This document shows, piece by piece, positions 5,893 to 59,727 of a stretch of DNA of 64,000 nt. Position numbers and translations under genes: made by a program. Source of the stretch: a bacterium (GTDB lineage: Bacteria; ARS69). Under the pieces are notes generated by a model, which was given only the letters and a program-made list of their open reading frames with translations, was not told the DNA's origin and made no database searches. How positions within the stretch are numbered: the stretch's first letter is position 1; each line of letters starts with the position of its first letter. The stretch covers positions 7,503-71,502 of the forward strand of contig JALGZR010000005.1 of the NCBI GenBank assembly GCA_025774805.1, given 5' to 3'.

Positions 5893-6273
5893 GATCGCGC
5901 ACGAACCTCACATCGCCGGTCCCGGGACCGCGAGCGGACAATCCAGACCAATCTTGGCAAGAGATCGGCTGCTTTCGATCCGGACTTGAAAGCGGCGGGC
6001 CTGGGCCTCGGCGACCCCGATTCTACTACGCGGAAGGGTCGCGACCGGCCCGTCCTTCGGGCCCCGCAGCCGGAGGCCGCCTCTGCCCTCCTGTCTCACC
6101 CCCCTCGGCTGCGGCGGCTCGCGACGAGCCGGGTGAGAAGCACGGGCGGGAGGTTGTGCTAATCTGCGCGGGCGCTGCCGACTCTTCCGTGGGACTCTGT
6201 TCGCGCGAAGAACCGCTCAAGACGGGGGGCGGGAGGTGTCCGATCCGAACGAGACGGGTCAGGAGGGGGCGTC
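5893..6273. other. Divergent intergenic region (381 bp)
   Basis: Lies between the PAS/GAF gene (minus) and the CHAT operon (plus). It contains a 12-bp perfect palindrome GGTCCCGGGACC at 5918-5929, which could be an operator, and a copy of the dispersed element near 6112-6145. An imperfect inverted repeat runs from TCTCACCCCCCTCGGCT (about 6093-6109) to AGCCGGGTGAGA (6127-6138). I found no convincing -35/-10 pair on either strand and no convincing small gene. Confidence 0.4.
6112..6145 (+). repeat. Dispersed element, copy 1 (degenerate)
   Basis: GGCTCGCGACGAGCC followed by GGGTGAGAAGCAC matches the core of copies at 9133 and 28611. It contains a perfect 6-bp stem GGCTCG/CGAGCC. The 3' end (GGCTAG) is not conserved; a TAA occurs further downstream at 6160. 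It lies between divergent genes. Confidence 0.6.
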
Positions 6274-6783
6274 ATGAGGGGCGACGAGGGGAGGTCGGGA
6301 GGAGAGAGAGCGCGCTTCCGCGACCACTGGAGGCCGTGGAAGGACTTCTTCACCGGCACCTGGGCTCCGGCGCTCACCGCGGGGGCCTCTGTCGGTCTTC
6401 TGCTGACCTTCGTCGTGCGGGATTCGGGGGGACCGGTACCCGATCCAGCGCCCTACCGGGTGGAGGAGTCGCCTCCCCGCGCCATCGTCCGACTCTCCCC
6501 CTCCCCCGAGGCGGAGCCGGCCGGGGACCTGAGCTTCTCTTGGGAATCCATCGAGGGCGCGATCCGGTACTGGGTCACGCTGGCGGATCCGGTGGAGGGG
6601 ACGATTCGCGAAATCGGCTCGACCGATGCGACCCGTCTCGCGGTGCCGCGCTCGCGAATGGGCGATCACTTCCCCGGAAGCGAGCCCCGAATCCTCCTCT
6701 GGACGGTCCGGGCCCGGCTGCTCGACGGAACCGAGATCTCCTCCGACCCGGGCAGCTTGCGATGGACCCCTCCGGCCCCCTGA
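6274..6783 (+). CDS. Single-pass membrane protein with extracytoplasmic Ig/FnIII-like domain
   Basis: 169 residues. A basic cytoplasmic N-terminus (about 1-28), one hydrophobic segment (about 29-48, WAPALTAGASVGLLLTFVV) and an exported domain with a fibronectin III-like strand pattern (LSFSWESIEGAIRYWVTL, then ILLWTVRARL). Such segments occur in membrane proteins next to CHAT/TPR genes, but I recognise no named family. The ATG follows AGGAGGGGG. Its last 22 bases overlap the CHAT gene, so the pair is translationally coupled. Likely role: membrane partner or sensor for the CHAT protease; inferred from context only. Confidence 0.7.
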   Translation: MRGDEGRSGGERARFRDHWRPWKDFFTGTWAPALTAGASVGLLLTFVVRDSGGPVPDPAPYRVEESPPRAIVRLSPSPEAEPAGDLSFSWESIEGAIRYWVTLADPVEGTIREIGSTDATRLAVPRSRMGDHFPGSEPRILLWTVRARLLDGTEISSDPGSLRWTPPAP

Positions 6784-9119
6784 GCACGGGACCCGGCGAA
6801 GGGCCGGCGGAGGCCGGGAACGCCCGGGAGCCTCGCGTGCTCGCCCTCGTGGCGGTCGGAATCGCGCTCGTCCCGCTTCTCGGACGCCCCGCCTCCGTCG
6901 AAGGCACGTCCCCCGAGCGGGGGCGCCCCGAGGCGACCGACCCGTCGGCCGAGGATCCGGCGAGCCGCGCTCAGGCACTCCTGGAGGCCGAGGCCTTCCT
7001 GGATGCCGCCCGCCAGTTCGACGAAGCGGCCTCGGGGGCCGCCCACGCCCGCGAGCGCGTGCTGCACCTGTGCAACGCCGCGGTCTGTCTCGAGCGGGCC
7101 GCGCGTTCGGGCGCCGGAGAGGCGAGGCTGGCCCGCGCGGCCCGGGAGGCGATGCAGCTGTCCGACTCCGATCCCGACGCCGCTTTCGTCCTCGCGAACT
7201 GGGCCCGGTGGCAGCTCGACCAGGGCCGGTGGGAGGAAGCCGAGGCGTTCGCGCTCCAAGCGATTCGAAGGGCGCGGTCGGCGAAGGAACCGGCGACCCG
7301 GGTGAGGGGCTGGCGAATCGTGGCCGAGAGCCGGCGGCTGCTCCGCCGCTTCGGGGAGGCGGAGGAGGCGGTGCGGACGGCGCGGGGCCTTCTCCGGGAT
7401 TCGGATCTCTCCCCCGGCCTCGACCCGGTGGCCCGGGAGCTCGATCTGACGGCCGGTCTCCTGGAGCTCGACCGGGGGCGGCCCGGCGCGGCCCTTCTCG
7501 ACTTGGAGGCGATCCTGCGCGCGGTGGAGGGCGAAGGGGACGAGGGTGTCCGACGTCGCGCGCTGCTCGGCATGGCCGAGGCCGCCTCCCGCGACGACCG
7601 GCCCGGACTCCGGGAGATGGCGCTGCAGCGCGCCGCCGAGCTCGCCCGGGAGGCCCGCGAGCGTGCCGACGTGCACCAGTGCCGGGCCCTGGTCGCGACG
7701 ATCGAGGGACGGCACGAGGACGCCGCCGCCGAGGCCGAGCGCTGCCTGGCGGAGGCGGAGGCGTGGATCCACCGGGCCCCGGACGAATCGGAGCGGATCG
7801 CCCGCCGGAGAGGGGCGCGGGGCTATCTCGAGGCCGCGCTCGCGACGGCGGACGCCAGCACGGTGACCGGAGACCGGGCCCGGACCGCGCTCGCTTGGAT
7901 CCGACGGATTCGGGACGGCATATCCTCCAACCCCCCCCAGGAGACCCGCCATCCGGTCACCTCGTCGGAGCCCCGCCTGGACGCGGGCGACGTCCACGTC
8001 CTCTGGTTCTGGGGGGCCCGCCGGGTGACCGGGATCCTCGGCCGCCCGGGCGAGGACGGCCGGACCGTGTATCGCCGCTTCGACGCGGGACCCTCCGAGG
8101 ACCTCCGGGAATGGATTCTCCTCTTCCGGAGCCTGCTCGGAAACGCGGGGCAGGAGGAGCTGCGGCTCCGAGCCGGGGAGCTGCTGGCTCGATCCCTCCT
8201 TCCGGGCGGGGAGGCGGGGCAGGGGGGACGGTTGGTCCTGGAGCCCGACGGGCCTCTGACCGCCCTCCCCTTCTCCGCGCTGCCCGGGGTCCGTACGGAA
8301 GGAGATGTGGACCGGGCCCCGCTCGGCATCCGGTGCGCGCTCCTCCGGTGGTTGCCGGGAGTCCCGGCTTCCCGGGGGCCCGTCTCGGCCCCGAGCTCCG
8401 ATCTGGTGATCCTGGCCGATCCCTCCCTTCCCGAGAGCGGCGGACACGACGAGCTCCCCGGGGCCCGGCGCGAGGCCGAGCGGATCGCGCGGGAAGACCC
8501 TCGCGCGGTGGTGCTCCTGGGACCCGAGGCGACGGAATCCCGCGTGATCGGATCGGGGGGAGCGGCGGTCCTTCACGTGGCGGCGCACACGTCTTTTCGT
8601 CCCGAGACGTCGGCCCTCCTGCTCGCGCCGGGGGACGGCGAGGACGGACGGTTGACCCCCGAGGAGATCCGCCACCTTCCCACCGTCCCCGGCCTCGTCG
8701 TCCTCTCGATCTGCGAGAGCCCGCTCGCGGACGTGTCGGGGCGCACGAGCGCGGGGGCCCTCGGCCACGCCTTTCTGCGGGCGGGGGCCGCGACCGTGAT
8801 CGGTGCACTGTGGAAGGTGGAGGATGATCACCTCCCGACGTTTCTCGCGGAGGTGTACCGGAGGCTTCGGGAGGGCGTGACGCCCTCGGAGGCGTTGCGG
8901 GGGGCCCGGGAAACGATGGTCCGGTCGGGCGATCCGCATCTCGCGGTTCCGCTCCTCTGGGGCGCGTTCGTCGCCGAGGGGCGCGACGAGCCGCCGCGCT
9001 GGCTTCCCCGCCGCCGCGAGAAGGGAGCCGATCCGATGGCGGCCGTCCTGGGACTGACCGCCGCCATCGGCTTTCTCGCCGCGCTCGGCGCGCGGCGGAT
9101 CCTCCGGCGCGCCGCGTAG
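6762..9119 (+). CDS. TPR-CHAT (caspase-like) protease, membrane anchored
   Basis: 785 residues from the ATG at 6762, which overlaps the previous gene by 22 bases; longer upstream extensions run through that gene and are rejected. Hydrophobic segment at about residues 27-43, helical TPR-type repeats about 65-370, CHAT domain about 400-740. The putative caspase-like dyad is H609 in LHVAAHTSF and C651 in VVLSICES, both in the expected places. A C-terminal hydrophobic helix (AAVLGLTAAIGFLAAL) is followed by RRILRRAA. CHAT proteases cut partner proteins in stress or defence pathways, and the TPR part usually binds the partner. The substrate is unknown. Confidence 0.88.
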   Translation: MDPSGPLSTGPGEGPAEAGNAREPRVLALVAVGIALVPLLGRPASVEGTSPERGRPEATDPSAEDPASRAQALLEAEAFLDAARQFDEAASGAAHARERVLHLCNAAVCLERAARSGAGEARLARAAREAMQLSDSDPDAAFVLANWARWQLDQGRWEEAEAFALQAIRRARSAKEPATRVRGWRIVAESRRLLRRFGEAEEAVRTARGLLRDSDLSPGLDPVARELDLTAGLLELDRGRPGAALLDLEAILRAVEGEGDEGVRRRALLGMAEAASRDDRPGLREMALQRAAELAREARERADVHQCRALVATIEGRHEDAAAEAERCLAEAEAWIHRAPDESERIARRRGARGYLEAALATADASTVTGDRARTALAWIRRIRDGISSNPPQETRHPVTSSEPRLDAGDVHVLWFWGARRVTGILGRPGEDGRTVYRRFDAGPSEDLREWILLFRSLLGNAGQEELRLRAGELLARSLLPGGEAGQGGRLVLEPDGPLTALPFSALPGVRTEGDVDRAPLGIRCALLRWLPGVPASRGPVSAPSSDLVILADPSLPESGGHDELPGARREAERIAREDPRAVVLLGPEATESRVIGSGGAAVLHVAAHTSFRPETSALLLAPGDGEDGRLTPEEIRHLPTVPGLVVLSICESPLADVSGRTSAGALGHAFLRAGAATVIGALWKVEDDHLPTFLAEVYRRLREGVTPSEALRGARETMVRSGDPHLAVPLLWGAFVAEGRDEPPRWLPRRREKGADPMAAVLGLTAAIGFLAALGARRILRRAA

Positions 9120-9132
9120 GATGCCGCCGACC

Positions 9133-9173
9133 CGCAGCCTCGCGACGAGCCCGGTGAGAAATGCAGGCTAGCG
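9133..9173 (+). repeat. Dispersed element, copy 2 (reference copy)
   Basis: Best-preserved copy: CGCAGCCTCGCGACGAGC, then CCGGTGAGAAATGCAGG, then CTAGCGG. It fills most of the 48-bp gap between the convergent CHAT and rnc genes. Read on the minus strand, its CTAG gives the TAG stop of rnc. Read on plus, it encodes the tail [12 protein letters not shown]-stop, close to the in-frame reading of other copies. It may act as a boundary or terminator. Confidence 0.85.
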
Positions 9174-11093
9174 GCGCCGGAGTCCTCTCACCTGCCGCCG
9201 CTTGCGTCGGGCGAACGTCCCTCGGGGAGCCGACGGAGGCTTTTCGGACTTCTCACCCTTCCCCGGCGACGGGGTGGACGAGCTCGCCGACCCGGACGGC
9301 TCCTCCGCGGGCGCGTCCACCGGTGACGGCGTATCCGCACCCTGCGGAGCGGGCTTCTCCTCGGGCGGACCTTCCGGCGGGCGAGGACGCTCCGCGTCCC
9401 CCACCGGCGGCCCTTTCGGTCGAGCTTCCGGAGCCACCTCCCGAGGCCCTTCCGTGGGGCCCGCCTCCACCCACGCCGGGGGAGGCGGTTCGGCCGGAGT
9501 GGTCGACGAGGGATCACTCTCGGGAGCAGGGGAGCGGGACGCATCCGCCCGTCGGCCCTCGGCAGGACGGAACGGCACGGGCTCCGGAGTGGAGACGGGC
9601 GTCGTCCGGGAATCCCGCCGCGCGCGGCGACGACCGACACGATCCCCCTCCCGCACCGGAGGCTCCGAGGTCTCGCGCTCCCGACGGGCCGGCGGCGCCG
9701 GAGGCCTCTCTTCCGCCGCGTCCCGGTCTCGACGGGCCGGCGGTGCCGGGGCCTCGGTCGCCTCGGAGACCCCCGAGGAGGCTCCCGGCGGAGTCGCCGT
9801 GGCGGGAGACGGATCGGGTCTCGGGGCGCTTTCCGCTTCCGCGTCCCGATCCTGCCCCGGCCGGCGCCGGCGTCCCCGACGCGGCCCGCGGCGATCGGCG
9901 GGGCCGGCCTCCGTCGTCCCGGATCGGTCGTTGGACGGGGCGGGGCGCGTCGACGAGGTCGTCTCCCGCGCGCGGGCGGCCTCCTCCCGCCGCCTTCGCG
10001 CGGACCGTCGCCGTTCCCTGGCCTCGCGCTCCGCTCTCTCCCTCTCTTCGAGCTCGACCCGCCGTTGGTGCAGGATCTTCTCGCGGGAGGCGGCGATGCC
10101 GTGTTCGCCGCGGTGACGGGCCACGCGATCGGGTCGTCCCTCGTTGCCGCCCCGCTCCGTTCGGCTCGGCCCGGTCGATCGGGATGCCGGTCGGGACGGT
10201 CCTGCCGATTCCTCGGCCCGAGGCTCGCGGATCCGGCGTCGCTCGGCGGCGGCGCGGCCCGATCGGTCGGAACGGCCGGCGCGACGTCCGCCGCCCCGTT
10301 CCGGCGCGGCTCTCCCCTGTTTCCGCTCGAGGGCGGCCCGGGCGGCGTTCTGTTCCGCCTCCTTCTTGCTCTTGCCTCGACCGGTCCCCCATACGTCGCC
10401 CCGTACGACGACCTCGATCGCGAACTCCTTCTCGTGTTCCGGACCCTCCTCGCGCCGCACCCGGTAGACCGGATGGCTGAGGCGCTTCGATTGCACGAAC
10501 TCCTGAAGCAGGGACTTGAAGTTCGTGTGCTCCTCGTCCTTGAGGATCGTGTGGATGTTCGCCAGGAGGAAGCGCTGGATGAACTTGTTCGAGGCGCGGT
10601 ACCCCTGGTCCAGGTAGATCGCGCCGATGACTCCTTCGAAGGAGTCCGCGAGAATGGACGAGCGATCGCGTCCTCCCATCTCGGACTCCTCGCCGGAGAG
10701 CAAAAGGTACTCGCCGAACCCCACATCGCGGGCCACGGAGGAGAGCACCTTTCGACTGACGAGGAGCGACTTCATCTTCGAGAGCGCTCCTTCGCTCCGG
10801 TCGGGAAACTTCAGGTAGAGGAACTGACTCACCGCGAGACCCAGCACGGAGTCTCCCAGAAACTCCATTCGCTCGTTGGAGTCGTTGCGGCTCAGGGAGG
10901 TGACGTGGGAATAGGAGCGATGGGTCAGCGCCTGTTCCAGAAGAGAGATGTCCGTGAACCGGATCCCGATCGACTTCTGAAACCTCTTGAGTTGACGGAT
11001 CCTGTCACCGGACGGGCCCTTGCGCGTACCGACGAAGAGCTTGCCGAGGACCGACATGCCCCGTCGGATCGCGGATGACTGGCTATTGCACAT
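9168..11093 (-). CDS. rnc: Ribonuclease III with a ~370-residue disordered C-terminal extension
   Basis: Residues about 30-260 form a complete RNase III: catalytic signature [12 protein letters not shown], second catalytic region [13 protein letters not shown], and a dsRNA-binding domain ending in [17 protein letters not shown]. It cleaves double-stranded RNA in rRNA processing and mRNA decay. Typical enzymes end near 230 residues; this one continues to 641 with no predicted fold, first Arg/Glu-rich ([19 protein letters not shown]) then Pro/Ala/Glu-rich, ending in a basic cluster. The frame is uninterrupted. The ATG at 11093 overlaps the fabF stop by 11 bases; M13 (11057) is an alternative start. 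The stop lies inside dispersed element copy 2. Confidence 0.9.
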
Positions 11094-12330
11094 GATTCCT
11101 GGTTGCGAGTGAGACGTTGTGTCCTCCGAACCCGAGCGAGTTGGTCAACGCGACTTCGACTCCTATCGTCCGCGGCTCGTTCGGGACGTAGTCGAGATCG
11201 CACTCGGGATCGGGGGTCTCGTAGTTGATGGTCGGAGGGATCCTTCCCTCGCTGACCGCGAGCACACACGCGATGAGCTCGATCCCCCCGGCCGCTCCCA
11301 GCAGGTGGCCGGTCATGGATTTCGTCGAGCTGACCGCGAGGTCTCGCGCGTGATCTCCGAAAACGGTCTTGATGGCGGCCGTCTCGATCTTGTCGTTGAG
11401 CTCGGTCGAGGTCCCGTGGGCGTTGACGTATCCCACGACGTCCGGGGGGATCTCGCCGTCTTCCAGGGCCGCCGCCATCGCGCGGGCGGCTCCCTCGCCG
11501 CCGGGGGACGGGGCGGTCATGTGGTAGGCGTCGGCGGTGTAGCCGTACCCGGCGAGCTCGCTGTAGACGCGTGCGCCGCGCGCCCTCGCGTGCTCCAGCT
11601 CCTCGAGGACGACGATTCCCGCCCCCTCGCCGATCACGAACCCGTCGCGATCCGCGTCGAACGGTCGACTCGCCCGCCCCGGATCGTCGTTGCGGGTGGA
11701 GAGGGCCTTCATCGACGTGAAACCTCCGACGGCCAGAGGGGTGACGGGCGCCTCCGCCCCCCCGGCGATCATGACGTCGGCGTCTCCGCAGCGGATGATC
11801 CGGAACGCATCCCCGATGGCGTTCGCGCCCGACGCACAGGCGGTCACGGTGGAGTTGCTCGGACCGCGGGCTCCGAGCCGCATGCTGATCAATCCCGTCA
11901 CCATGTTGATGATCATCATGGGAATGAAGAACGGACTGATGCGACTAGGCCCCTTCTCCATGAGGATGCGGTGTTGGGCCTCGAGCGTCCCGATTCCGCC
12001 GATGCCGGAGCCCACGAGGACCCCGATCCGATCCGCGTTGCCGTCGTGGATTTCGATCGCCGAGTCCTCAACCGCCATCAGCGCGGCCGCCATGCCGAAC
12101 TGGGTGAAGAGGTCCATCTTCCGGACCTCTTTGCGATCTCCGCAGATCGCGGAATCGAAGTCCTTCACCTCCGCCGCGATCTTCACGCCGTGACTGGCGC
12201 AATCGAAGCGGGTGATCGGACCGGCTCCGCTGGTCCCGGTGAGCGCGTTGCTCCAGAACTCCGGGTAACTGTTCCCGATCGGCGTCACGGCCCCGAGGCC
12301 GGTGACGACCACGCGTCTCTTCTGACTCAT
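11083..12330 (-). CDS. fabF: 3-oxoacyl-ACP synthase II (KAS II)
   Basis: Condenses acyl-ACP with malonyl-ACP in fatty-acid elongation. 415 residues, normal length. The Cys-His-His catalytic set is visible: [22 protein letters not shown] and [11 protein letters not shown]. Translation from [13 protein letters not shown] at 12330 fits the family; the frame is open further upstream but only with low-complexity shadow sequence. It lies 49 bp after acpP and overlaps rnc by 11 bases, so rnc is probably coupled to the fatty-acid operon. Confidence 0.97.
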
Positions 12331-12379
12331 GCTGCTTCCATCGGCAAGCCGCCGATCCCGTCGTCCGGGATCGGGCGGC

Positions 12380-14433: not shown

Positions 14434-14440
14434 TGCGCTC

Positions 14441-23638: not shown

Positions 23639-23679
23639 GCTAGCCCGCTGATCTCCCCAGACTCGTCGCGAGGCTGCGG
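23639..23679 (-). repeat. Dispersed element, copy 3 (left member of an inverted pair)
   Basis: On the minus strand CGCAGCCTCGCGACGAG is identical to copy 2, followed by a diverged TCTGGGGAGATCAGCGGG and CTAGC. It faces copy 4 in opposite orientation. Confidence 0.8.
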
Positions 23680-23784
23680 ATAGTCGTGGCTGGCAAGGAG
23701 ATGGGGTGCTTTGGTCCGAGGCGGGGCCGTCGCTCCGTCGCAGGGCGAAAGCGCCGCAGCGACGAAGCCGGGCGCGACTTCGCC

Positions 23785-23823
23785 GCTGCCGCAGCAGAGC
23801 ATGGTGATAAATGCGGGCTAGGA
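23785..23823 (+). repeat. Dispersed element, copy 4 (right member of the pair)
   Basis: GAGCATGGTGATAAATGCGGGCTAG (23797-23821 region) matches the 3' half of copy 2 with few changes. Its final AG forms part of the AGGAGG Shine-Dalgarno (23820-23825) of the following gene. Confidence 0.7.
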
Positions 23824-27110: not shown

Positions 27111-27170
27111 CGCTAGCCCGCACGTTTCACCAGCCTCGCCGCGAGCCCGGTGGGAAATGCACGCCAGCGT
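27111..27170. repeat. Dispersed element, paired copies forming a ~60-bp palindrome (copies 5 and 6)
   Basis: Left arm 27112-27139 begins GCTAGCCCGCAC and ends CAGCCTCGC; right arm 27140-27169 begins CGCGAGCCCGG and ends GCACGCCAGC. The arms are two copies in opposite orientation joined head to head, so a transcript would fold into a stem of about 28 bp with a few mismatches. It lies just upstream of rnd and covers its leader. Confidence 0.8.
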
Positions 27171-27638: not shown

Positions 27639-28622
27639 TCAGACGGAGGTCGGCCCCGGCGGCGAATCCGGCGGCTCGCCGGGAGGTGAGAGGCGAGGGT
27701 GACGGGCGAGCGCGCGATCCCGAACCCCCCGCAGCCGGCGCAGCGCCCGGAGACCCGCGAGCGCGCACACTTCGGAGGCGACCCAGGCGCCCAGGTGAGC
27801 GGCCTCGGAGCCGGTCATCCCCAGCACCCGGCCCGCGCAGACTCCGGAGAGGAAGGAGTCCCCGCATCCCGTCGGGTCGACGGCGTCGCGGCAGGGAACC
27901 GCCGGGATCTCCTCGCTGCGCACCGTCCCCCCGCCCCGGTAGTAGCGGACCGCTCCCTGTTCCCCCCGCGTGACGAGGACCTCCCGCGCTCCGGCCGTGA
28001 GAAGCCTCGCGGCCGCGGCGGAGACGTCGCCGGGCCGTCCGCCGAAGTGCTCGACCTCTTCCTCGTTTCCGCGGACCACGTCGAAGAGCGCCGTCCACTC
28101 CGGCGCGTCCGGAACGCCGCGCGGCCGCCGCGGGGACCCGAGCGTCCGCGCGAGCGCCTGGATGTCGAGCAGGAACAGCGCCGACGAGCTCCGTCGGAGC
28201 GCGGTCAGGGTCGCCCGTTCGAGGTCCCGCCCGGAGATCATGTTCACCAGGACCGCGCGACCCTCGGCGGCTCCCGACAAATCCGCGGGCGTGAGCGGGG
28301 CGACGCGCATCTCGACCTCCTCCCGTCGGTCTCCGGGGCCGGAGTAGTCGAGAACGGAGAGATTCGTTCCCCCCGGGTCCGGGATCAGGGCGTCGGTCTC
28401 GACGTCGGGGAAGGCGGAGATCAGCTCGACGGCCTCGCTCCGGTGCGCGGATCCCAGCCTTCCGTGCGGCCGGACCCGGATGCCCGTCCCCTCGAGCACG
28501 GCGGCGAGCGACAGGACATTGTAGAGGATCCCGCCCAGGCTCTCGTGCCGGGCTCCGTCGGGAGCGATGATGACGTCGTGGTTCACCGTGCCGACGATCG
28601 AGACGAAGTCCCTAGTCCGCAT
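27639..28622 (-). CDS. PfkB-family carbohydrate/nucleoside kinase
   Basis: 327 residues. Ribokinase-like fold: SIVGTVNHDVI start, SLGGILYNV substrate loop, GNEEEVEHF, LVTRGEQGAV and catalytic DPTGCGDSFLSG (GCGD in place of the usual GAGD). The sugar specificity cannot be read. A Pro-rich tail of about 20 residues follows. The ATG lies within dispersed element copy 8 and overlaps the preceding stop by 11 bases. Confidence 0.88.
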   Translation of the reverse strand: MRTRDFVSIVGTVNHDVIIAPDGARHESLGGILYNVLSLAAVLEGTGIRVRPHGRLGSAHRSEAVELISAFPDVETDALIPDPGGTNLSVLDYSGPGDRREEVEMRVAPLTPADLSGAAEGRAVLVNMISGRDLERATLTALRRSSSALFLLDIQALARTLGSPRRPRGVPDAPEWTALFDVVRGNEEEVEHFGGRPGDVSAAAARLLTAGAREVLVTRGEQGAVRYYRGGGTVRSEEIPAVPCRDAVDPTGCGDSFLSGVCAGRVLGMTGSEAAHLGAWVASEVCALAGLRALRRLRGVRDRALARHPRLSPPGEPPDSPPGPTSV

Positions 28623-28655
28623 TTCTCACCCGGCTCGTCGCGAGGCCGCCGCGCC
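28611..28655 (-). repeat. Dispersed element, copy 8
   Basis: On the minus strand GGCCTCGCGACGAGCC, then GGGTGAGAAATGCGG and ACTAG. In frame it encodes the tail GLATSRVRNAD-stop of the acyltransferase, while its ATG serves as start codon of the PfkB kinase. It thus holds both the stop of one gene and the start of the next. Confidence 0.85.
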
Positions 28656-29604
28656 CGCCCCGGATCGGTTCCTCCCCGCGCGGGGCGGAGGGGGTCGCCC
28701 CGCCGTCGGGCGGCCGGGTCTTCCATCGACGGTGAGCCCAGAAGTAGTTCGTCGGCCAGCGGAGGACGAGCGACTCGAGGTAGCGATTGAAACGGACGGC
28801 GCCGTCGCGCCGGTTCCGCACCTCGTCGAGACTCGGATCGGGCCTCCAGACCTCGTGCGGAACGAGGGTGTAGGTGTCTCCCTCGTCCACGAGCGCGCCG
28901 AACACGAGAGGAGCCCCGGTTCGCATCGCGAGGGACACGATCCCCCCGTGGGTGGACGCCGGCGTCCCGAGGAAGTCGATGAACACCCCCTTGCCCCGGG
29001 CGTCCTGATCCATGAGCGTGACGACGCAGCCGCCGCCTTCGAGGTGTCGCACGACCCCTCGCAGATCCCGCCGGGGCGAGAGAGGCTCGATTCCGGCCGC
29101 CCGCCGGGCCCGCATCACCCGTTCGTTCACGCGGGGATTCGCCATGTCGGCGGCCAGCGCCGCTATGGAGACCCCGAGCCGGCGGAGCCCCTGGATCGCC
29201 AGCTCCCAGTTGCCGAAGTGCCCGGACACGACCAGCGAGCCTCCGTCCTTCGTGAGCGAGTGCTTCAGCTCCTCCATCCCCGAACGGGAGAGAACGCCCC
29301 AGAGCTCTTCGTCCCCGAGGCGGCCTCCCCGAAGGAGGTCGACGAACGTGCGGGTCATCACGGCGTAGCTCTCACGGGCGATCGATTCCGCCTCCGGGCG
29401 CCCGCCCTCCGGCTGCAATCTCTCCAAAACGTTCCGAACCGCGACCTCACGGCGTACCCGGGCGATGTCGAACGCGAACCGGCCGGTGCCCGTCGCGAAT
29501 CGCATGGCCGATCGTCGCGAACCGGCTCGAACCGCGGCCTCGAGGCCGCGGAAGCCGACGAGCTCGAGAACGTGGCGGGCGCGCCGGCCCGGCCTAGCCT
29601 GCAT
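28612..29604 (-). CDS. Lipid A biosynthesis (LpxL/HtrB-like) acyltransferase
   Basis: 330 residues. The catalytic HxxxxD/E-type motif is VVSGHFGNWELA; then MDQDARGKGVFIDFLG and PLVFGALVDEGDTY, as in late acyltransferases that add secondary acyl chains to lipid A. No strong N-terminal hydrophobic anchor is evident, though the N-terminus is basic. Overlaps dprA and the PfkB gene by 11 bases each. Supports an outer membrane with lipid A. Confidence 0.88.
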   Translation of the reverse strand: MQARPGRRARHVLELVGFRGLEAAVRAGSRRSAMRFATGTGRFAFDIARVRREVAVRNVLERLQPEGGRPEAESIARESYAVMTRTFVDLLRGGRLGDEELWGVLSRSGMEELKHSLTKDGGSLVVSGHFGNWELAIQGLRRLGVSIAALAADMANPRVNERVMRARRAAGIEPLSPRRDLRGVVRHLEGGGCVVTLMDQDARGKGVFIDFLGTPASTHGGIVSLAMRTGAPLVFGALVDEGDTYTLVPHEVWRPDPSLDEVRNRRDGAVRFNRYLESLVLRWPTNYFWAHRRWKTRPPDGGATPSAPRGEEPIRGGRGGLATSRVRNAD

Positions 29605-29612
29605 GACTCGCC
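29593..29612 (-). repeat. Possible partial dispersed element, copy 7
   Basis: GAGTCATGCAGGCTAG on the minus strand matches only the 3' end of the element (ATGCAGGCTAG identical). It supplies the dprA TAG stop and the acyltransferase ATG, exactly as copy 8 does at the next junction. Short, so chance or functional convergence is possible. Confidence 0.45.
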
Positions 29613-32488: not shown

Positions 32489-32517
32489 TTGACGCCGGGG
32501 GTCGGCCCCCCTAACCT
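32489..32517 (+). promoter_or_regulatory. Promoter for the HAD phosphatase gene
   Basis: TTGACG (32489-32494), 17-base spacer, TAACCT (32512-32517). The -10 hexamer is the beginning of dispersed element copy 9. Predicted leader about 45 bases. Confidence 0.55.
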
Positions 32518-32540
32518 GCACCTCTCACCAGGCTCGGCCT
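32511..32540 (+). repeat. Dispersed element, copy 9
   Basis: CTAACCTGCACCTCTCACC followed by AGGCTCGGCC on the plus strand, differing from the consensus at a handful of positions. Orientation is opposite to copy 2. It overlaps the -10 region and leader of the HAD gene. Confidence 0.7.
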
Positions 32541-36203: not shown

Positions 36204-36227
36204 GGCAGGGTGAGATACGCCGGCTAA
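36204..36227 (+). repeat. Dispersed element, copy 10
   Basis: GGCAGGGTGAGATACGCCGG followed by CTAA. Its CTA is the TAG stop of the activator gene on the minus strand. Just before it, CGGCAGGGCAGG is repeated directly (36186-36209). Confidence 0.65.
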
Positions 36228-37774
36228 ATGCCGAACCGCTTGATCTTCGAGTTCAGGGTCGTGCGAGGGATGCCCATGAGTCGAGCCGCCTCTCGCTTGT
36301 TCCCTTCGGTCAACTGGAGAACGGAGCGAATGTAGTCCCTTTCCATGCTCGCGTAGGACGGCACCCCCCGGCCGTCCGCTCCGAGGACGGAATCGAGGTC
36401 GGCCCCTCGGCCCCGGCCGGGGGGCGCCGGTCCGTCCGCCTCCGAGGTGGATCCGGAGGCGATTTCCGGCCCATCGGGAATGTGCTCGGGACGCAGCTCG
36501 GGACCTCCTCGGGAACGGACGATGGCCCCGGCGATCAGACTCTCCAACTCGCGGACGTTGCCCCGAAGATCCCTCGTGGACAGCACCTCGACGAAGCCGG
36601 GTGTCATCCGCAGCTCGGAGCTCACGGTGCTCCGATATCCCTCGAGAACGTGCTCGGCGATCGCGGGGATTTCCTCCCTCCGCTCCCGCAGCGGGTGGAT
36701 CTTCACCGTGTACATCTGAAGGCGATAGAAAAGATCGGCGCGGAATCGCTCCGCTTCGACTTCCCGGACGAGATCGCGATTCGTCGCGCTGATGACCCGG
36801 GCCGTAGCCGGGATCATCCGGGATCCCCCCACCCTGCGGAAGCCGCGCTCCTCCAGCACGCGCAGGAGCATGGCCTGGGTGTCGAGCGGCATGTCCCCGA
36901 TCTCGTCGAGGAAGATCGTCCCGTCGCCCGACCTCTCGAACGCTCCCCGAACCGTCGAGTCGGCCCCCGTGAAGGCTCCCTTCTCGTGGCCGAAGAGCGC
37001 GCTCGCCATGAGGTCCTGGGGGATGGCCGCGCAGCTGATCGCCTCGAAGCTCTCCGCCCGGCGGTGGCTGAGCTCGTGCACGGCGTGGGCGACGAGCTCC
37101 TTGCCGGTGCCCGTCTCCCCGAGGATCAGCACCGGTAGATCGAGCTTCGCGACGGCGACGACCTCGGCGAAGAGGGAGGCGGTGCGATCGCCCTCCCCGC
37201 GAATCGTAGTCAGGATGGGATGCTCTTTCCGGAGCGAAAGGATCCGCGCCGCGGGATCCCGGTCGCGCTCCGTAGCCCCGACATCGGCGCCGAACGAGGT
37301 CCCGAGCGCGAGGACCGACTGCCCGACGATCTCCCGGACCACCGGAACGTCTCTCCCGGCGAAGGGCTCCCCCAGCAGCTTGGGTCCCAGGGCGAAGAAG
37401 CCCCGCACCCGACCCTCGAGACGGACGGGACAGACCAGCTCGATCTCGAGACCACGGGCGAGGCGCGCGACCCTCGGGCCGAGACCGGCGATCTCCTCTC
37501 CGCAGAGCGGATCGACGGACTCGCCGAGCGTCTTCTCCATCCGGCGGGTCAGGGGCAGAGAGACCTCGGGAACCTCGGAGAGTCCCTGCGCGGCGCGGAG
37601 AGTGAGGCGATCGTCGGAATCGCGCTCGAAGAACACCGCGAAGCTCGCTCCGCTGGCGCCCATGAGCGAGAGCAGCGCCGTGGTCAGGATCGGCTCCCGC
37701 CCGCGGAGCCCGAGGAAGCCGCGCGCCGTGTCGTACAGCAGGGAGAGCTCCAGCAGGTCTTTTCTGGGATCCAC
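36224..37774 (-). CDS. Sigma54-dependent transcriptional activator with GAF sensor domain
   Basis: 516 residues. GAF domain about 15-155, AAA+ activator about 180-405 with Walker A LGETGTGKELVA, the sigma54-contact GAFTGA (FGHEKGAFTGAD), Walker B TIFLDEIGD and the arginine region, then a Fis-type HTH about 475-515 (NKREAARLMGIPRTTLNSKIK). No receiver domain, so it senses a small ligand (NifA/NorR-like layout) and does not need a kinase. Its likely target is the convergent secreted gene or pilus genes. Confidence 0.93.
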   Translation of the reverse strand: MDPRKDLLELSLLYDTARGFLGLRGREPILTTALLSLMGASGASFAVFFERDSDDRLTLRAAQGLSEVPEVSLPLTRRMEKTLGESVDPLCGEEIAGLGPRVARLARGLEIELVCPVRLEGRVRGFFALGPKLLGEPFAGRDVPVVREIVGQSVLALGTSFGADVGATERDRDPAARILSLRKEHPILTTIRGEGDRTASLFAEVVAVAKLDLPVLILGETGTGKELVAHAVHELSHRRAESFEAISCAAIPQDLMASALFGHEKGAFTGADSTVRGAFERSGDGTIFLDEIGDMPLDTQAMLLRVLEERGFRRVGGSRMIPATARVISATNRDLVREVEAERFRADLFYRLQMYTVKIHPLRERREEIPAIAEHVLEGYRSTVSSELRMTPGFVEVLSTRDLRGNVRELESLIAGAIVRSRGGPELRPEHIPDGPEIASGSTSEADGPAPPGRGRGADLDSVLGADGRGVPSYASMERDYIRSVLQLTEGNKREAARLMGIPRTTLNSKIKRFGI

Positions 37775-51524: not shown

Positions 51525-51816
51525 ACAGGTCCGAGCGTCCGCACTCGGCTCACAACTCGTTGGAGATCAGGGGGTTCGCACGATGTCGATCCGGTCGCAA
51601 CCGTCTCGGACCGCCCTTCGCCCCGTCCCGGAATGCAAGGACGGATCGCACTCTGCACGGTCCGAATCGGAATCCCCACGCGAGGGACGGCCCCCACGTC
51701 TCGTGCATCGGAGGCTTGTGGCGTGCCCTTTAGAGCCGCGACAAAATTGTGGGAGGCACTTGCCGATGGTGGAGGACACGAGCGTGGAGTCACGCGAGCC
51801 TGGTGAGAAATGGAGG
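51525..51816. other. Intergenic region between pilR and pilA
   Basis: About 290 bp without a convincing gene. Expected to hold PilR binding sites upstream of the pilA -24 box; I could not define a clear repeat for them. The pilR-proximal end carries dispersed element copy 11. Confidence 0.4.
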
Positions 51817-51822
51817 CTAGCG
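51791..51822 (+). repeat. Dispersed element, copy 11
   Basis: CGCGAGCCTGGTGAGAAATG then GAGG and CTAGCGG. Its CTAG provides the TAG stop of pilR on the minus strand, as copy 2 does for rnc; both genes end GCCGC-TAG. Confidence 0.8.
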
Positions 51823-53232
51823 GCCGTCGCCCTTTCCTCTTCGTCCGCTCTTCACCGGCTCGAGTCCGTAGCGCTGGATCTTCCGGTAGAGGGTGGAGGA
51901 GTTGATCCCGAGGATCGTGGACGCCTTTTTCTTCTGCCAGCCGGTGTCCTCGAGAACCTTGACGAGATACTCCCGCTCGATGTCCTCGAGCGTCCCGGAC
52001 CGATCGGCCATCGGGGAAAACAGACTGTCGGACGACCCCGGGCGGGCCGACCGCCGTCCCTCCCGCACGCGCTCCGGAAGCGACTCGAGCGTGAGGATCC
52101 CCCGGTCCTCGAGGATCACGCCCCGCTCGATCACGTTCTCGAGCTCCCGCACGTTGCCCGGCCAGTGATACTCGCAGAGGACACGCAGTGCCGTGTCGTC
52201 CACTTTCATCATGGGTCGCTCGGAGAGCGCGCAGTACGTCTCCAGGAAGTGATCCACCAGAAGGGGAATGTCCTCCCGTCGTTCCCGGAGCGGCGGCACC
52301 GTGATCGGAATCACGTTGAGGCGATAGAAGAGATCGGCCCGGAAGCTCCCGGCTTCGACCTCCTCCTCGAGATCGGCGTTCGTCGCGGCGATGACCCGCA
52401 CGTCGACCTTGAGCGGTTTCTGACCACCCACGGGAATGATCTCGCGCTCCTGGAGGATGCGCAGCAGCTTCACCTGGATGGCGAGGCTCGTCTCCCCGAC
52501 CTCGTCGAGGAGGAAGGAACCGCCGCGCGCGACGATGAAGAGCCCCTCCTTGTCGCGAATCGCCCCGGTGAAGCTCCCCTTCACGTGGCCGAAGAGCTCC
52601 GACTCGAGAAGGGTCTCCGGCAGCGCCCCGCAGTTGATCGAGACGAACGGACCGTCCGCCCGCCGGGATGCGGAGTGGATCTCGCGCGCGAAGAGCTCCT
52701 TTCCCGTTCCGCTCTCACCGCACAGCAGAACCGTCGAGTCGGACTTCGCCACCTTGTGGACGGTCTGGAAGACCTCCTGGAGTTTCGGGCTCTGACCGAT
52801 GATCGACCGCGACGTCAGGGTCTGGCGAAGCTCGTGCCTGAGGTAGCGATTCTCGCCGCGCAGCCGGCGAAGCTCGAGGGCCCGCCGGATCACGAGCTTG
52901 ATCTCGTCGTTCTTGGTCGTCTTGACGAAGTAGTGATGCGCCCCTTGGTTCACCGCCTCGATCGCCGTGTCGAGAGACGCGTAGGCCGTCATCATGATGA
53001 CCGGCACTTCGGGATCCCGAGAGCGGATCGACTTCAGGAGCTCGATCCCCGACATGCCTGGCATCTTGATGTCCGACAGAATGACGTCGTATGCCGTCCG
53101 GTCGAGCTCCTCGAGAGCCGCGACTCCGTTGGACACGCCCGTGACCTCGTAGCCTTCCTTGGACAGCATGATCGAGAGGAAGCGACGCTGCCCTTCCTCG
53201 TCGTCGACGATCAGGATTCTTTGTCTGGCCAT
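51817..53232 (-). CDS. pilR: Sigma54 response regulator PilR
   Basis: 471 residues. Receiver 1-120 (LIVDDEEGQRRFLS, DVILSDIKMPGMSG), AAA+ about 145-375 with CGESGTGKELFA and FLLDEVGET, Fis HTH near the C-terminus (KKKASTILGINSSTLYRKI). The sigma54-contact loop reads GSFTGA instead of GAFTGA. TGATG overlap with pilS and position beside pilA support PilR. Confidence 0.94.
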   Translation of the reverse strand: MARQRILIVDDEEGQRRFLSIMLSKEGYEVTGVSNGVAALEELDRTAYDVILSDIKMPGMSGIELLKSIRSRDPEVPVIMMTAYASLDTAIEAVNQGAHHYFVKTTKNDEIKLVIRRALELRRLRGENRYLRHELRQTLTSRSIIGQSPKLQEVFQTVHKVAKSDSTVLLCGESGTGKELFAREIHSASRRADGPFVSINCGALPETLLESELFGHVKGSFTGAIRDKEGLFIVARGGSFLLDEVGETSLAIQVKLLRILQEREIIPVGGQKPLKVDVRVIAATNADLEEEVEAGSFRADLFYRLNVIPITVPPLRERREDIPLLVDHFLETYCALSERPMMKVDDTALRVLCEYHWPGNVRELENVIERGVILEDRGILTLESLPERVREGRRSARPGSSDSLFSPMADRSGTLEDIEREYLVKVLEDTGWQKKKASTILGINSSTLYRKIQRYGLEPVKSGRRGKGDGR

Positions 53233-54983: not shown

Positions 54984-54989
54984 CGCAGG

Positions 54990-56213
54990 CTAGCTCGCGA
55001 TGACGTTGACCATCCGGAAGATCGGAAGGTACATCGCCACGACCATTCCGCCGACGATGGCGCCCATGAAGACGATCATGATCGGCTCGATGATCGAGGT
55101 AAGGCCCTCGACCGCGCTGTCGACCTCATCGTCGTAGAAATCGGCGATCTTGGTCAACATCTCGTCGAGAGCGCCGGTCTCCTCCCCGACGGTGATCATC
55201 TGCACCACCATGGGCGGGAACACCCCCGACTGTCGCAGGGGATTCGAGATCGTGTCTCCCTCGCGAATCGAGGCCCGCGCGTTCATGACCGCATCCTTCA
55301 CGATGACGTTGCCCGCCGTCTTCGCCGTGATCTCCAGCCCGTCGAGGATGGGTACGCCCGAGGAGACCAGCGTTCCGAGAGTCCGGGTGAATCGCGCCAC
55401 GGAGCCTTTCCGGAGCACGTCTCCGAGGACCGGGACCCTCAGCAGGAGCCCGTCGATCACGTGCTTCCCCTTGTCCGTCGCGTAGTACCGACGGAACCCG
55501 AAGAAGGCAGCGACGATCAGAGCGACGCCGATCCACCACCAGTCGCGGATGAGGTTGGACGCGCCGAGGACGATTCGCGTCGGGAGCGGAAGCTGTGCCC
55601 CGAAGTCCGAGAACATCTTCGCGAACGTCGGGATGATGAACAGCAGCATGAAGAGGGTCGCAGTGACCGCAACGGTGAAGACGACCGCCGGGTACATCAT
55701 GGCCCCCTTCACCTTGCGCTTCAGAGCCTCGATCTTCTCGATGTACTCCGCCAGCCGCATGAGGATCGTGTCCAGGATGCCTCCGGCTTCGCCCGCGTTG
55801 ACCATGTTGACGTAGAGCTCGTCGAACGCCTTCGGATGCCGGACGAAGGCCTCCGAGAGGGTCGATCCCGCCTCGATGTCGTGCATGACCCTCTTGGTGA
55901 CGTCCCGGAACGCCTGCTTGTCGAGCTGACGCGAGAGGATGTCGAGGCACTGCACCAAGGGAAGGCCCGCGTTGATCATGGTCGCGAACTGCCGCGTGAA
56001 GATCGCGAGGTCCTTGGTCCCGATCCGATTGCCGAAGGGGAGCTTCAGACTGATTTCCTTGGGCTTCTGCCGAACCGAAGTGACGATGATCTTCTTTCTT
56101 CGGAGCTGGGCGAGCAGCTCACCCCGGTTCCCGACGGTGAGCTCACCGTTCACGGTGTCTCCGCCGACGGTTCGACCCTGCCATTGATATGTGATCACGT
56201 TGTCCACCCCCAT
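54990..56213 (-). CDS. pilC: Type IV pilus inner-membrane platform PilC
   Basis: 407 residues, T2SF fold in two repeats. LAIFTRQFATMINAGLPLVQCLDIL and later FTRTLGTLVSSGVPILDGLEI are the paired motifs; three to four membrane helices; ends MYLPIFRMVNVI. Platform for PilB/PilT. Normal length. Confidence 0.96.
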   Translation of the reverse strand: MGVDNVITYQWQGRTVGGDTVNGELTVGNRGELLAQLRRKKIIVTSVRQKPKEISLKLPFGNRIGTKDLAIFTRQFATMINAGLPLVQCLDILSRQLDKQAFRDVTKRVMHDIEAGSTLSEAFVRHPKAFDELYVNMVNAGEAGGILDTILMRLAEYIEKIEALKRKVKGAMMYPAVVFTVAVTATLFMLLFIIPTFAKMFSDFGAQLPLPTRIVLGASNLIRDWWWIGVALIVAAFFGFRRYYATDKGKHVIDGLLLRVPVLGDVLRKGSVARFTRTLGTLVSSGVPILDGLEITAKTAGNVIVKDAVMNARASIREGDTISNPLRQSGVFPPMVVQMITVGEETGALDEMLTKIADFYDDEVDSAVEGLTSIIEPIMIVFMGAIVGGMVVAMYLPIFRMVNVIAS

Positions 56214-56310
56214 GCAACGTAGGGGACCCTGAAGACCGGCGACCCGGGAAACGCCGGTGCTCCATTGCGCTTTCTTGCGGGTCTACCCGGACACCCGCCG
56301 AAAAGCCCGA

Positions 56311-57390
56311 TCATCCTGCCACCATCATCGCCCGGCCCAGCATCCCCTCGAACTCCTTGGGATCCGGACTCCGGGCGATCGCGTCCTCGTAGGCGATCTC
56401 CTTGCGGTTGTAGAGGGCCACGAGGGATTGGTTCATCGTCTGCATGCCGTACTTCTGGCCCGCCTGCATGAGACTGTAGATCTGGTGCGCCTTCCCCTCG
56501 CGGATGAGCGCACTGATCGCCGACGTGCAAATCATGACCTCGGCGGCCATCGACCGACCCGGGGGGGTCATCTTCGGGATGAGAGCCTGCGTCACGACAC
56601 CTCGGAGCACGAATGCGAGCTGAGCGTAGATCTGGTTGTGATGACTGGCAGGAAAGGCGTCCACGATGCGTGTGACGGACTCGGTCGCGGAGTTCGTGTG
56701 CAGCGTGGCGAAGGCCAGGTGCCCCGTTTCGGCCAGAGTCAGTGCCGTCTCCATCGTGTCGCGGTCCCGCATCTCACCCAGGAGAATCACGTCGGGGTCC
56801 TGGCGGAGAACGTGCCGCAGGGCGTTGTGGAAGCTGTGGGTGTCGGCTCCCACCTCGCGTTGATTCACGATGGCCCGCTTGTGATTGTGCATGAACTCGA
56901 TCGGATCTTCGATCGTGACGATGTGACAGGGCGTTTCCGAGTTGATCCGATCGATGAGGGACGCCAGCGTCGTGGACTTTCCGGAGCCGGTCGGCCCGGT
57001 CACGAGGATGAGGCCCCGGGGGAGGCCGGCCAGTTTCGCCACCGACTGCGGCAGACCGAGCGCCTCGAAGGGTGTCACCTCGAAGGGGATCTGGCGAACG
57101 ACCATCGTGACGACCCCGCGCTGGATGAAGCAGTTGCCGCGGAACCGGGCGAGGCCCTTGATTCCGAACGAGAAGTCCAGCTCGTTTTCGTTCTCGAACC
57201 TCTTCTTCTGCTCGTCGTTCAGGGCGCTGTACGAAAGGCGCTGGCACATGTCCGGAGTGAGGACCCCGCTGAGCTTCGAGGAGACGAGCACGCCATCGAC
57301 TCGAATCTGGGCCGGGATTCCCGCGGTCACGTGCAAGTCCGACGCCTTTGCCTTGACCATCTCTTCGAGCAGAGCGCGCAGCGAGACCAT
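56311..57390 (-). CDS. pilT: Pilus retraction ATPase PilT
   Basis: 359 residues. Walker A VTGPTGSGKSTTLASLI, Asp box TIEDPIEFMH, Walker B VILLGEMRDRDTME, His box AETGHLAFATLHTN, and the PilT-typical AIRRG-like end (EDAIARSPDPKEFEGML). GGGAGGAAAG precedes ATG. The 97 bp to pilC hold no clear feature. Confidence 0.97.
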   Translation of the reverse strand: MVSLRALLEEMVKAKASDLHVTAGIPAQIRVDGVLVSSKLSGVLTPDMCQRLSYSALNDEQKKRFENENELDFSFGIKGLARFRGNCFIQRGVVTMVVRQIPFEVTPFEALGLPQSVAKLAGLPRGLILVTGPTGSGKSTTLASLIDRINSETPCHIVTIEDPIEFMHNHKRAIVNQREVGADTHSFHNALRHVLRQDPDVILLGEMRDRDTMETALTLAETGHLAFATLHTNSATESVTRIVDAFPASHHNQIYAQLAFVLRGVVTQALIPKMTPPGRSMAAEVMICTSAISALIREGKAHQIYSLMQAGQKYGMQTMNQSLVALYNRKEIAYEDAIARSPDPKEFEGMLGRAMMVAG

Positions 57391-57408
57391 TTACTTTCCT
57401 CCCATCAG

Positions 57409-59097
57409 CTAATCGGCGGCCGACTCTCTGAGAACCTCTTCGGGAGTCGTCTCCCCCAACACCATCTTGCGGAGAGCGTCCTGACGCAGGGTCAGCATTC
57501 CCTCCTCGACGGCGACGGACTTGAGCTCCGCGGTGGACGCCCGGTCCAGGATCATCTTCCGGAGCCGGGACGACATCTGGAGCACCTCGTAGATCCCCGT
57601 CCGACCTCGGTATCCCGTCCCGTGACAGTCGTTGCAGCCCACGGCCCGGTAGAGCCTGTTGTCGCCGATCTCTGCCCGCGTGATCTGGAGTTCCGCCAAC
57701 AGCTCCTCGTGGGTCTCGATCCCCTCTCGGCACGCCGTGCACACCAGTCGCAGGAGTCTTTGGGCCACGATGCAGTTGACCGAGGAGGAGACGAGGAACG
57801 GGGCGATACCCATGTCGATCATCCGGTCGATCGTCGAAGGGGCGTCGTTCGTGTGAAGCGTCGAGAGCACGAGGTGGCCGGTGAGAGCGGCCTTCACCGC
57901 GATGGCGCCGGTCTCGAGATCGCGGATCTCGCCCACCATGACGATGTTCGGATCCTGGCGGAGAAAGGCCCGCAACGACGCCGCGAACGTGAGTCCGATC
58001 TCGTCATTGACGTTGACCTGGTTGATGCCCGGCAGGTTGTACTCGACGGGATCCTCGGCCGTCATGATGTTGACGTTGATGACGTTGATCTTGGAGATCG
58101 CCGAGTAGAGCGTCGTCGTCTTTCCCGAACCGGTGGGTCCCGTGACGAGAACCATCCCGTACGGACTCTCGATCGCCTTCAGGAAGCGCTCCAATGCCTC
58201 GGGCTGGAATCCGAACGTCTCGAGATTCACGTTCAGATTCGACTGGTCGAGGATCCGCATCACGATCTTCTCGCCGAAGATGCAGGGCAACGTCGACACC
58301 CGGAGGTCGATCTTGCGATTCTGGACCATGATCTTGATGCGGCCGTCCTGGGGGACCCGCTTCTCGGCGATGTCGAGTTCGGCCATCAGCTTGAGCCGGG
58401 AGGTGATCGGCGCCCGCATGCGCAGCGGAGGAGAGGGAAGCTCGTAGAGTGCCCCGTCCTGGCGAACCCGCACCCGAATCATCCTCTCGAATGGCTCGAT
58501 GTGGATGTCCGAAGCCTGTCGGGTCACGGCCTCGGCGAGGAGTGAGTTCACGTACTTGATGACCGGAGCGTCGTCGCTCCCCGCGAGCGGGTCATCTTCC
58601 TCCTCTTCCTCGACGTACTCCACCGCCTCGCCGTCTTCCATGTCCTTCATGATGTCGTTGAGGGCGTTGGCGGTGCCGTAGTAGCGGTCGACCGTGCGCT
58701 TGATGGCGCTCTCGGCGGCGACGACCGGCTGGACCTCCAGGCCGACGATGAACTTGATGTCGTCGATGGCGTAGAGGTTCAGCGGGTCGGACATCGCGAG
58801 GGTGAGGGTCCTTCCCACTTTCCGGATGGGGATGGCGCCGAACTTGGTGGCGACGTCGGCGGGAAGGAGATCGACCGCGACCTTGTCCACGTCGAAGTTG
58901 TCGAGATCGACGGCGGGCATGTCGTAGATGCGCGACAGCACGGTGAGGAGATCTCCTTCCGACATCAACCCCACCTTGACGAGGCAGGCGTCGAGGGTGT
59001 CCCCCGTCGACTTCTGTGCTTTTCGAGCGTGGTCGAGCTGCTCCTCGGAGATGACTTCATTCTCGAGAAGAAGAGTCTCGAGCCGTTCCATCGACAA
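57409..59097 (-). CDS. pilB: Pilus extension ATPase PilB
   Basis: 562 residues. N-terminal MshE domain (EEQLDHARKAQKSTGDTLDACLVKVG), Walker A VTGPTGSGKTTTLYSAI, MTAEDPVEYNLPGINQVNV, Walker B MVGEIRDLETG, and a zinc tetracysteine CTAC...CNDCHGTGYRGRTGIYEV. GGAGAGG fits a TTG start at 59097 (6-base spacing); ATG at 59091 is the alternative. Overlaps comEA by 41 bases. Confidence 0.96.
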   Translation of the reverse strand: MSMERLETLLLENEVISEEQLDHARKAQKSTGDTLDACLVKVGLMSEGDLLTVLSRIYDMPAVDLDNFDVDKVAVDLLPADVATKFGAIPIRKVGRTLTLAMSDPLNLYAIDDIKFIVGLEVQPVVAAESAIKRTVDRYYGTANALNDIMKDMEDGEAVEYVEEEEEDDPLAGSDDAPVIKYVNSLLAEAVTRQASDIHIEPFERMIRVRVRQDGALYELPSPPLRMRAPITSRLKLMAELDIAEKRVPQDGRIKIMVQNRKIDLRVSTLPCIFGEKIVMRILDQSNLNVNLETFGFQPEALERFLKAIESPYGMVLVTGPTGSGKTTTLYSAISKINVINVNIMTAEDPVEYNLPGINQVNVNDEIGLTFAASLRAFLRQDPNIVMVGEIRDLETGAIAVKAALTGHLVLSTLHTNDAPSTIDRMIDMGIAPFLVSSSVNCIVAQRLLRLVCTACREGIETHEELLAELQITRAEIGDNRLYRAVGCNDCHGTGYRGRTGIYEVLQMSSRLRKMILDRASTAELKSVAVEEGMLTLRQDALRKMVLGETTPEEVLRESAAD

Positions 59098-59524
59098 GTT
59101 GTTCCTCTCCCTCCGTCGCCGCGGATTCCGTCTCGGCGTCCGCTCCCCCGGCTTCCGTTCCCGTCGTCACCAGACCCCGGAGCCTCTCCACCGTTCGGGG
59201 GCCGATGCCCGGGACCCGATCGAGATCTTCGATCGTCTCGAACCGCCCCCCGCTCTCCCGGGTCGCGACGATCGCGCGCGCCTTGACGGGCCCGATTCCG
59301 GGCAGCAGCTCGAGCAGCTCCGGTCCCTCCCGATTCACGTCGATCGGGAACGGATCGCGCTCGATCACCGAAGCGCTCGGGGCCTCGCCGGCGCCCCCGG
59401 TGTTCGTCGCAGACCGGTTCCCGATCCCTCCGGGGAGGGATCCGAGGAGAACCCCCAACGCGACGAAGAGCAGAACGTTCCGCTCCTCGCGCGTCAGAAG
59501 AGACACTCCGCCTCGCGGAGCCAC
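59057..59524 (-). CDS. comEA: ComEA-like helix-hairpin-helix protein
   Basis: 155 residues. N-terminal membrane segment about 15-35 (NVLLFVALGVLLGSLPGG), linker, then two HhH motifs (LLELLPGIGPVKARAIV; IEDLDRVPGIGPRTVERL), and an acidic tail. Periplasmic DNA-binding protein for DNA uptake in competent bacteria. First gene of the pilBTC-pilSR run, and with dprA it suggests transformation. The stop lies 41 bases inside pilB. Confidence 0.88.
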   Translation of the reverse strand: MAPRGGVSLLTREERNVLLFVALGVLLGSLPGGIGNRSATNTGGAGEAPSASVIERDPFPIDVNREGPELLELLPGIGPVKARAIVATRESGGRFETIEDLDRVPGIGPRTVERLRGLVTTGTEAGGADAETESAATEGEEQLVDGTARDSSSRE

Positions 59525-59676
59525 GATTTCTCCCTCCGGGTATCGGTGTCGGTCTCCATCCCCTTGACCTTCGAAGAGAGGTGAACTCTTTAGAAGACAA
59601 CGAGTTGCCAGAATCGACCAAAACTCCCCGCGATGGACCGGGATCGCCCACGCGGGCGGGAGTCGGATGGGGAGCG

Positions 59677-59727
59677 GAGCGGCCCGGGGAGGAATGCGGG
59701 CCCGCCTGGGGAGGAACGCAGGCTAAA
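59677..59727 (+). repeat. Dispersed element, tandem pair of diverged copies (12 and 13)
   Basis: GGCCCGGGGAGGAATGCGGG (59680-59700 region) is followed by CGCCTGGGGAGGAACGCAGG and CTAA. The second copy supplies the TAG stop of manC on the minus strand. GGTGAGAAATGC is changed to GGGGAGGAACGC, the same A-to-G drift in both copies. Confidence 0.6.

Follow-up and report, generated by a model that had tools for sequence, protein, structure and literature searches.

The short repeat dispersed among the genes of the window (the whole stretch of 64,000 nucleotides that was analyzed) is very probably a MITE of the IS1380 type that inserts at CTAG, and its association with stop codons follows from this target. 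The structure and copy number of the element, its CTAG target, its empty sites and the ends that it has in common with IS1380 elements were observed directly. The predicted mechanism is that an IS1380-family DDE transposase recognizes the ends of the MITE and acts on them in trans, inserting it at CTAG (also at CTAA and TTAA) with duplication of the 4 bp. With CTAG scarce and concentrated at stops and in intergenic DNA, many insertions would fall on a gene's own C-TAG, where the duplicated CTAG would leave the stop and the protein unaltered, and insertions within genes would be purged. A relic would occasionally be recruited later as coding sequence, for example at 28612. In total, 22% of the genome was analyzed in detail (1.15 Mb, window included), and genes were called with a simple codon-model caller written for this analysis.

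Structure and Copy Number of the Element

The genome scan that the first-pass annotation had suggested was run, and the dispersed repeat is real. At three mismatches or fewer, CTAGCCTGCATTTCTCACC was found 7 times in the window (0.01 expected) and at 408 sites in the 5.1 Mb (5.10 Mb) genome (220 forward and 188 reverse), while the reversed pattern, used as a control, gave 0. The second motif, GGGCTCGTCGCGAGGC, was on its own at chance level (8 sites at three mismatches or fewer, 7.85 expected), and it matters solely as the subterminal continuation of CTAGCCTGCATTTCTCACC. Copies in the genome were often convergent at a fixed spacing, forming a unit of ~182 bp, CTAGCCTGCATTTCTCACC...GGTGAGAWATGCAGGCTAG, in which imperfect TIRs of ~19 bp are bounded by CTAG on both sides (CTAG, CCTGCATTTCTCACC...GGTGAGAAATGCAGG, CTAG). 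A MITE has TIRs, a length of 50-600 bp, no coding capacity and a high copy number; the unit has 19-bp TIRs, a length of 182 bp and no transposase inside, with 408 ends in the genome and 124 inferred insertions in the 1.15 Mb. These insertions comprised 72 elements with paired ends and 52 single ends. Among the paired elements, 28 measured 180-182 bp, 31 measured 54-98 bp, and the rest mainly 174-300 bp; the modal length of convergent pairs was 182 bp, and eight elements were exactly 55 bp long. The 28 full-length copies had a mean identity of 86% in the alignment. The forms of 54-98 bp are internally deleted MITEs, and the single ends are relics. The full 182-nt unit folds into one long hairpin (-106.7 kcal/mol, z -5.1, copy 23640-23821), the only form to fold better than shuffles, and an Rfam scan of the window gave no match. 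The copies found in the window were the following:

23640..23821, plus strand: full-length 182-bp MITE with CTAG at both ends, aligned with 27 other full-length copies and used for the RNA fold; its neighbours are an M6-type peptidase gene and a DUF3467 gene (Pfam)
27113..27167, no strand assigned: 55-bp internally deleted MITE with both inverted repeats, CTAG...CCAG
9134..9171, minus strand: single-end relic, a perfect 19-bp TIR (9153-9171) plus the subterminal part
28612..28649, plus strand: single-end relic through which the lipid A acyltransferase gene reads outward
29594..29612, plus strand: degenerate TIR with 3 mismatches, likely a genuine relic, at the junction of an upstream gene tail (..ASHAG and stop) and the possible acyltransferase ATG
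32511..32529, plus strand: single TIR end CTAACCTGCACCTCTCACC, intergenic
36209..36227, minus strand: degenerate TIR end TTAGCCGGCGTATCTCACC, whose TAG terminates a sigma-54 activator gene (36224-37774, minus)
51802..51820, minus strand: TIR end; an NtrC/PilR-like response regulator gene (51817-53232, minus) has its stop in the CTAG
59708..59726, minus strand: degenerate TIR end TTAGCCTGCGTTCCTCCCC, whose TAG terminates manC (59723-60781 as called, minus), with a second, more decayed end directly beside it
6114..6155, minus strand: decayed single end, intergenic, with 69% identity to the copy at 9135-9176

The repeat had been credited with a dozen copies, a count that is too high: the sites at 23639 and 23785 belong to a single 182-bp element, one at each end, and the pair counted at 27111 likewise bounds a single 55-bp element. 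The assignment of the CTAG as the stop of rnc, the NtrC/PilR-like regulator, the sigma-54 activator and manC was correct, each of these genes running into the element, and so was that of the lipid A acyltransferase, whose stop lies in the element's CTAG in the opposite (outward) orientation. The TAG stop of rnc (9168-9170, minus strand) lies within the CTAG of the 9134..9171 relic, and the gene encodes RNase III and dsRBD domains (Pfam). The rnc product (9168-11057, minus strand) has its RNase III domains in the first ~245 residues, followed by an Arg/Pro/Glu-rich low-complexity C-terminal tail of ~385 residues. The HTH_8 C-terminus of the sigma-54 activator is intact (Pfam).

CTAG as the Target and Empty Sites

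CTAG is the duplicated target of the element. Nested copies have one CTAG in common, as would result if the CTAG ending one element received a second element and was duplicated. Empty sites were found at orthologous positions. In one genome (G005), a gene ending YKLLRS, followed by CTAG, has a 186-bp element at its stop; two congeners, G030 (84% flank identity) and G028 (82%), have collinear flanks without the element, and there the gene ends YKLLRSS. Two elements of contig C11 are absent from G001-G004, in which the ends of the orthologous genes are displaced by 0-4 residues, and G004 retains an unoccupied GGC-TAG at the orthologous site. The comparison of loci with and without the element, proposed earlier, thus gave three cases, compared as nucleotide or protein sequence, in which the proteins end within a few residues of each other and a fourth with a shorter variable tail. 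The earlier suggestion of a mobile palindromic unit is borne out by a TIR-bounded MITE with empty sites in relatives.

Other targets were also seen. An IS1380 element of Bryobacterales (L149) is flanked by CTAA in the same orientation left and right, a direct repeat that is not what an inverted repeat would give. In the MITEs, terminal 4-mers other than CTAG were direct in three cases and inverted in three, with no clear direct-repeat pairing, probably due to decay. The piggyBac elements, to which IS1380 is the outgroup, duplicate TTAA with rare CTAA and TTAG variants (PMC10813416), and this fits with the CTAG, CTAA and TTAA targets of the present element. MITEPsy1 is a known MITE with CTAG or YTAA targets (PMC3189936).

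Stop Codons and Availability of the Target

Base composition predicts 3409 CTAG sites in the 1.15 Mb; 287 were found (12-fold depletion), and 89 of these 287 were element ends. GATC and TCGA, unlike CTAG, were abundant in the same sample. The 198 free CTAG sites included 78 gene stops (39%), 40 coding and 80 intergenic sites; the 89 element sites included 42, 5 and 42, respectively. Coding insertions were depleted (P=2e-7), and the share of stops among non-coding sites did not differ between elements and free CTAG (P=0.12). Therefore, choice of target together with removal of damaging insertions suffices to explain the pattern. Every copy had been placed at a gene boundary; counted per insertion over the 1.15 Mb, 48 of 124 were at a stop, about 2 were inside genes and the rest were intergenic. 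The placement at gene ends is non-random, but not every copy lies at a stop.

The position of the stop relative to the element was also informative. Among the 172 ends, 49 genes ran into the element and stopped at the entry CTAG, ahead of any sequence that the element encodes; two stopped at the exit CTAG. Because the sequence through the entry CTAG is the target's own, stops of this class predate the insertion, and the proteins have ordinary C-termini, such as the helix-turn-helix end of NtrC. At four elements, convergent genes stop at both outer ends (CTAG was intact at both in two of them), as expected if the palindromic CTAG was the common stop of both genes. Entry stops and no exit stops were found in a Deltaproteobacteria MAG (13 of 51 ends), in Bryobacterales (13 of 102) and in Gammaproteobacteria (6 of 25); these counts were made by gene calling, a caller-free test of open frames being too noisy in GC-rich genomes.

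The element might instead be a selected regulator of 3' ends, a terminator or mRNA stabilizer, whose position reflects function and not target choice. The hairpin of the full-length unit is strong (z -5.1), there is a modest excess between convergent genes (17/72, against 79/546 of intergenic regions), and 27 of 52 single ends have persisted as short relics at stops. However, stops account for no larger a share of insertions than of free CTAG sites, short relics fold no better than shuffles, and no T run follows the ends. We therefore regard such a regulator as unlikely.

Relics as Coding Sequence

C-terminal remodelling by the element is rare but real at one locus. The lipid A acyltransferase gene (28612-29604, minus) takes its last ~11 residues, GLATSRVRNAD, and its stop from the 28612 relic, and the PfkB gene (27639-28622, minus) has its predicted start at the relic's ATG (28620-28622), so that the relic apparently supplies the start codon as well. 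At the orthologous junction without the element (L280/L292), the acyltransferase of G003 ends RPPGAKADS and directly overlaps the next gene, and the PfkB orthologue starts elsewhere. The 29594 end, which is more degenerate, has a similar layout. In the TIR read outward (ATGCAGGCTAG; 28612-28630 and 29594-29612), an ATG overlaps the TAG. Over the 1.15 Mb, a called gene started at the element's ATG in 8 of 172 ends, with N-termini MQA- or MR-; these are predicted calls, and relics may double as start codons.

This locus favours a module that is kept because it supplies stops and a VRNAG-type tail to its neighbours, and the 29594 end is possibly a similar case. Such a role is very improbable in general: exit stops account for 2 of the 51 stop-associated ends and for none in the three other lineages, and the remaining 49 proteins stop short of any residue coded by the element. 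The remodelling of C-termini put forward in the first-pass annotation is therefore contradicted as a rule (49 entry against 2 exit stops among 172 ends) and stands as a rare exaptation at the acyltransferase. The shared tail LATSxVRNAG noted there exists as the outward translation of the element's end and should not be read as a conserved protein feature.

The Transposase

The likeness to REP/BIME sequences mobilized by a RAYT (IS200-like Y1 transposase), which rested on a short intergenic palindrome in hundreds of often inversely paired copies, is all but refuted, because Y1_Tnp (PF01797) gave 0 matches in this genome, hence no RAYT flanked by copies, though it was detected in five control genomes, and because in place of a 20-40 bp unit that carries a GTAG-type tag on one side, as GTAG REPs do (PMC3733652), there is a TIR-bounded MITE of 182 bp with symmetrical CTAG ends, a duplicated 4-bp target and ends that match elements carrying an IS1380-type transposase elsewhere.

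A PF13701 search of carrier genomes revealed IS1380 transposase genes between the same ends in Bryobacterales (L159 and L149) and Reyranella (L150). The L159 element is 1732 bp long with ends CTAGCCTGCATTTCTCACC / CTAGCCCGGATATCTCACC, and that of Reyranella 1614 bp; the L159 and L149 proteins scored 385 bits to NF033539 (IS1380 family transposase), for which the cut-off is 180. Annotated IS1380 elements of 1663-1665 bp on three complete plasmids, P. putida pKF715A, a Stutzerimonas zhaodongensis megaplasmid and Bradyrhizobium pCB82_1 (L302, L303 and L305) have the inverted ends CTAGCCCGCATTTCTCAC with CTAG outside. The ends of the MITE are thus common to these autonomous elements, and in Bryobacterales G009 MITEs and intact IS occur together in one genome. 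More distant IS1380 relatives (~48% identical) have other ends. Viral contigs (L295-L298) carry IS1380 transposases of more distant kinds; their inverted repeats, TCGACGCGGAAATCTCAC, are different but have the inner ATCTCAC/TTCTCAC part of the end in common.

In the present genome, the PF13701 search found no intact IS1380 transposase, only a C-terminal fragment, and in an assembly of 284 contigs loss and non-assembly are indistinguishable. As only this fragment was found, we infer from the shared ends that an IS1380 transposase moved the copies of this genome. Long convergent pairs were inspected for a transposase inside: apparent 2.2-kb pairs on contig C104 enclose ordinary genes, and a candidate on C35/C104 was a HAD-type gene followed by an element.

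Distribution and Implications

Among the matches listed, the exact 19-mer occurred in Deltaproteobacteria, Bryobacterales, Verrucomicrobia, Gammaproteobacteria, Nitrospira, Eisenbacteria and others. One Deltaproteobacteria MAG contained 15 copies of 186 bp that were 98.4-100% identical, which indicates recent spread. Many contigs of the Deltaproteobacteria MAG VGTG01 (L037-L141; e.g., L045, L049, L055) have a terminus no more than ~160 bp from an element end; the recent 186-bp copies therefore break the assembly. Three Verrucomicrobia loci (L071, L092, L139) hold a different element type of ~75 bp, CTAGCCTGCATTTCTCACCACTTTTTGCCACCGCGAAGCCGGAGTTC...AGCATGCAGGCTAG, whose left end is the same.

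IS1380 elements that target CTAG may, along with their MITEs, form a general "stop-codon-safe" mobile system, a proposal for which we see even chances. Genes avoid CTAG but keep it in C-TAG stops, one of which can be common to two convergent genes, so insertion there would be protein-silent. If true, this would account for one MITE superfamily with nearly invariant ends reaching hundreds of copies in several phyla, and for relics recruited as gene ends or starts. The rule is simple: a transposon with a CTAG target will look like a supplier of stop codons. In the fifth of the genome that was sampled, about 1 in 17 called genes (49/853) has its end precisely at such an element. Ends of this kind were seen in many phyla, and the 28612 locus is a concrete case in which a relic gives a stop, and probably a start codon, to adjacent genes. 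For annotation, the 19-mer can be used to mask MITEs, to explain contig breaks and to avoid mistaking VRNAG tails or MQA starts for conserved features.

Comparison with Known Systems

The literature searched contained no description of this MITE family, and the exact 13-mer of the element end matched solely an unrelated virology paper. REP/BIME sequences with a RAYT are likewise palindromic, dispersed and placed at gene ends, but they depend on another class of transposase and have neither a TIR-bounded unit of ~180 bp nor a CTAG duplication. Correia/NEMIS, ERIC and Nezha (PMC3733652) resemble the element as hairpin units of 70-300 bp that occur in hundreds, include internally deleted forms and adjoin genes, whereas their inverted repeats and their targets, commonly TA, are different. 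MITEPsy1 of Pseudomonas syringae (PMC3189936) is a MITE of ~100 bp that duplicates a 4-nt target, CTAG or YTAA; it differs in its inverted repeats, GGAAGGTCTGAAAAAGCC, in its reported derivation from ISPsy2 and in its moderate copy number, and the part of that source consulted reports no link to stop codons. The IS1380 subgroup ending CTAGCCCGCATTTCTCAC (NF033539 / PF13701; e.g., P. putida pKF715A) has the TIRs of the element (2 mismatches of 19) and CTAG at both ends; its members are 1.6-1.7 kb long with a transposase gene of ~460-480 aa, whereas the element in the window is geneless.
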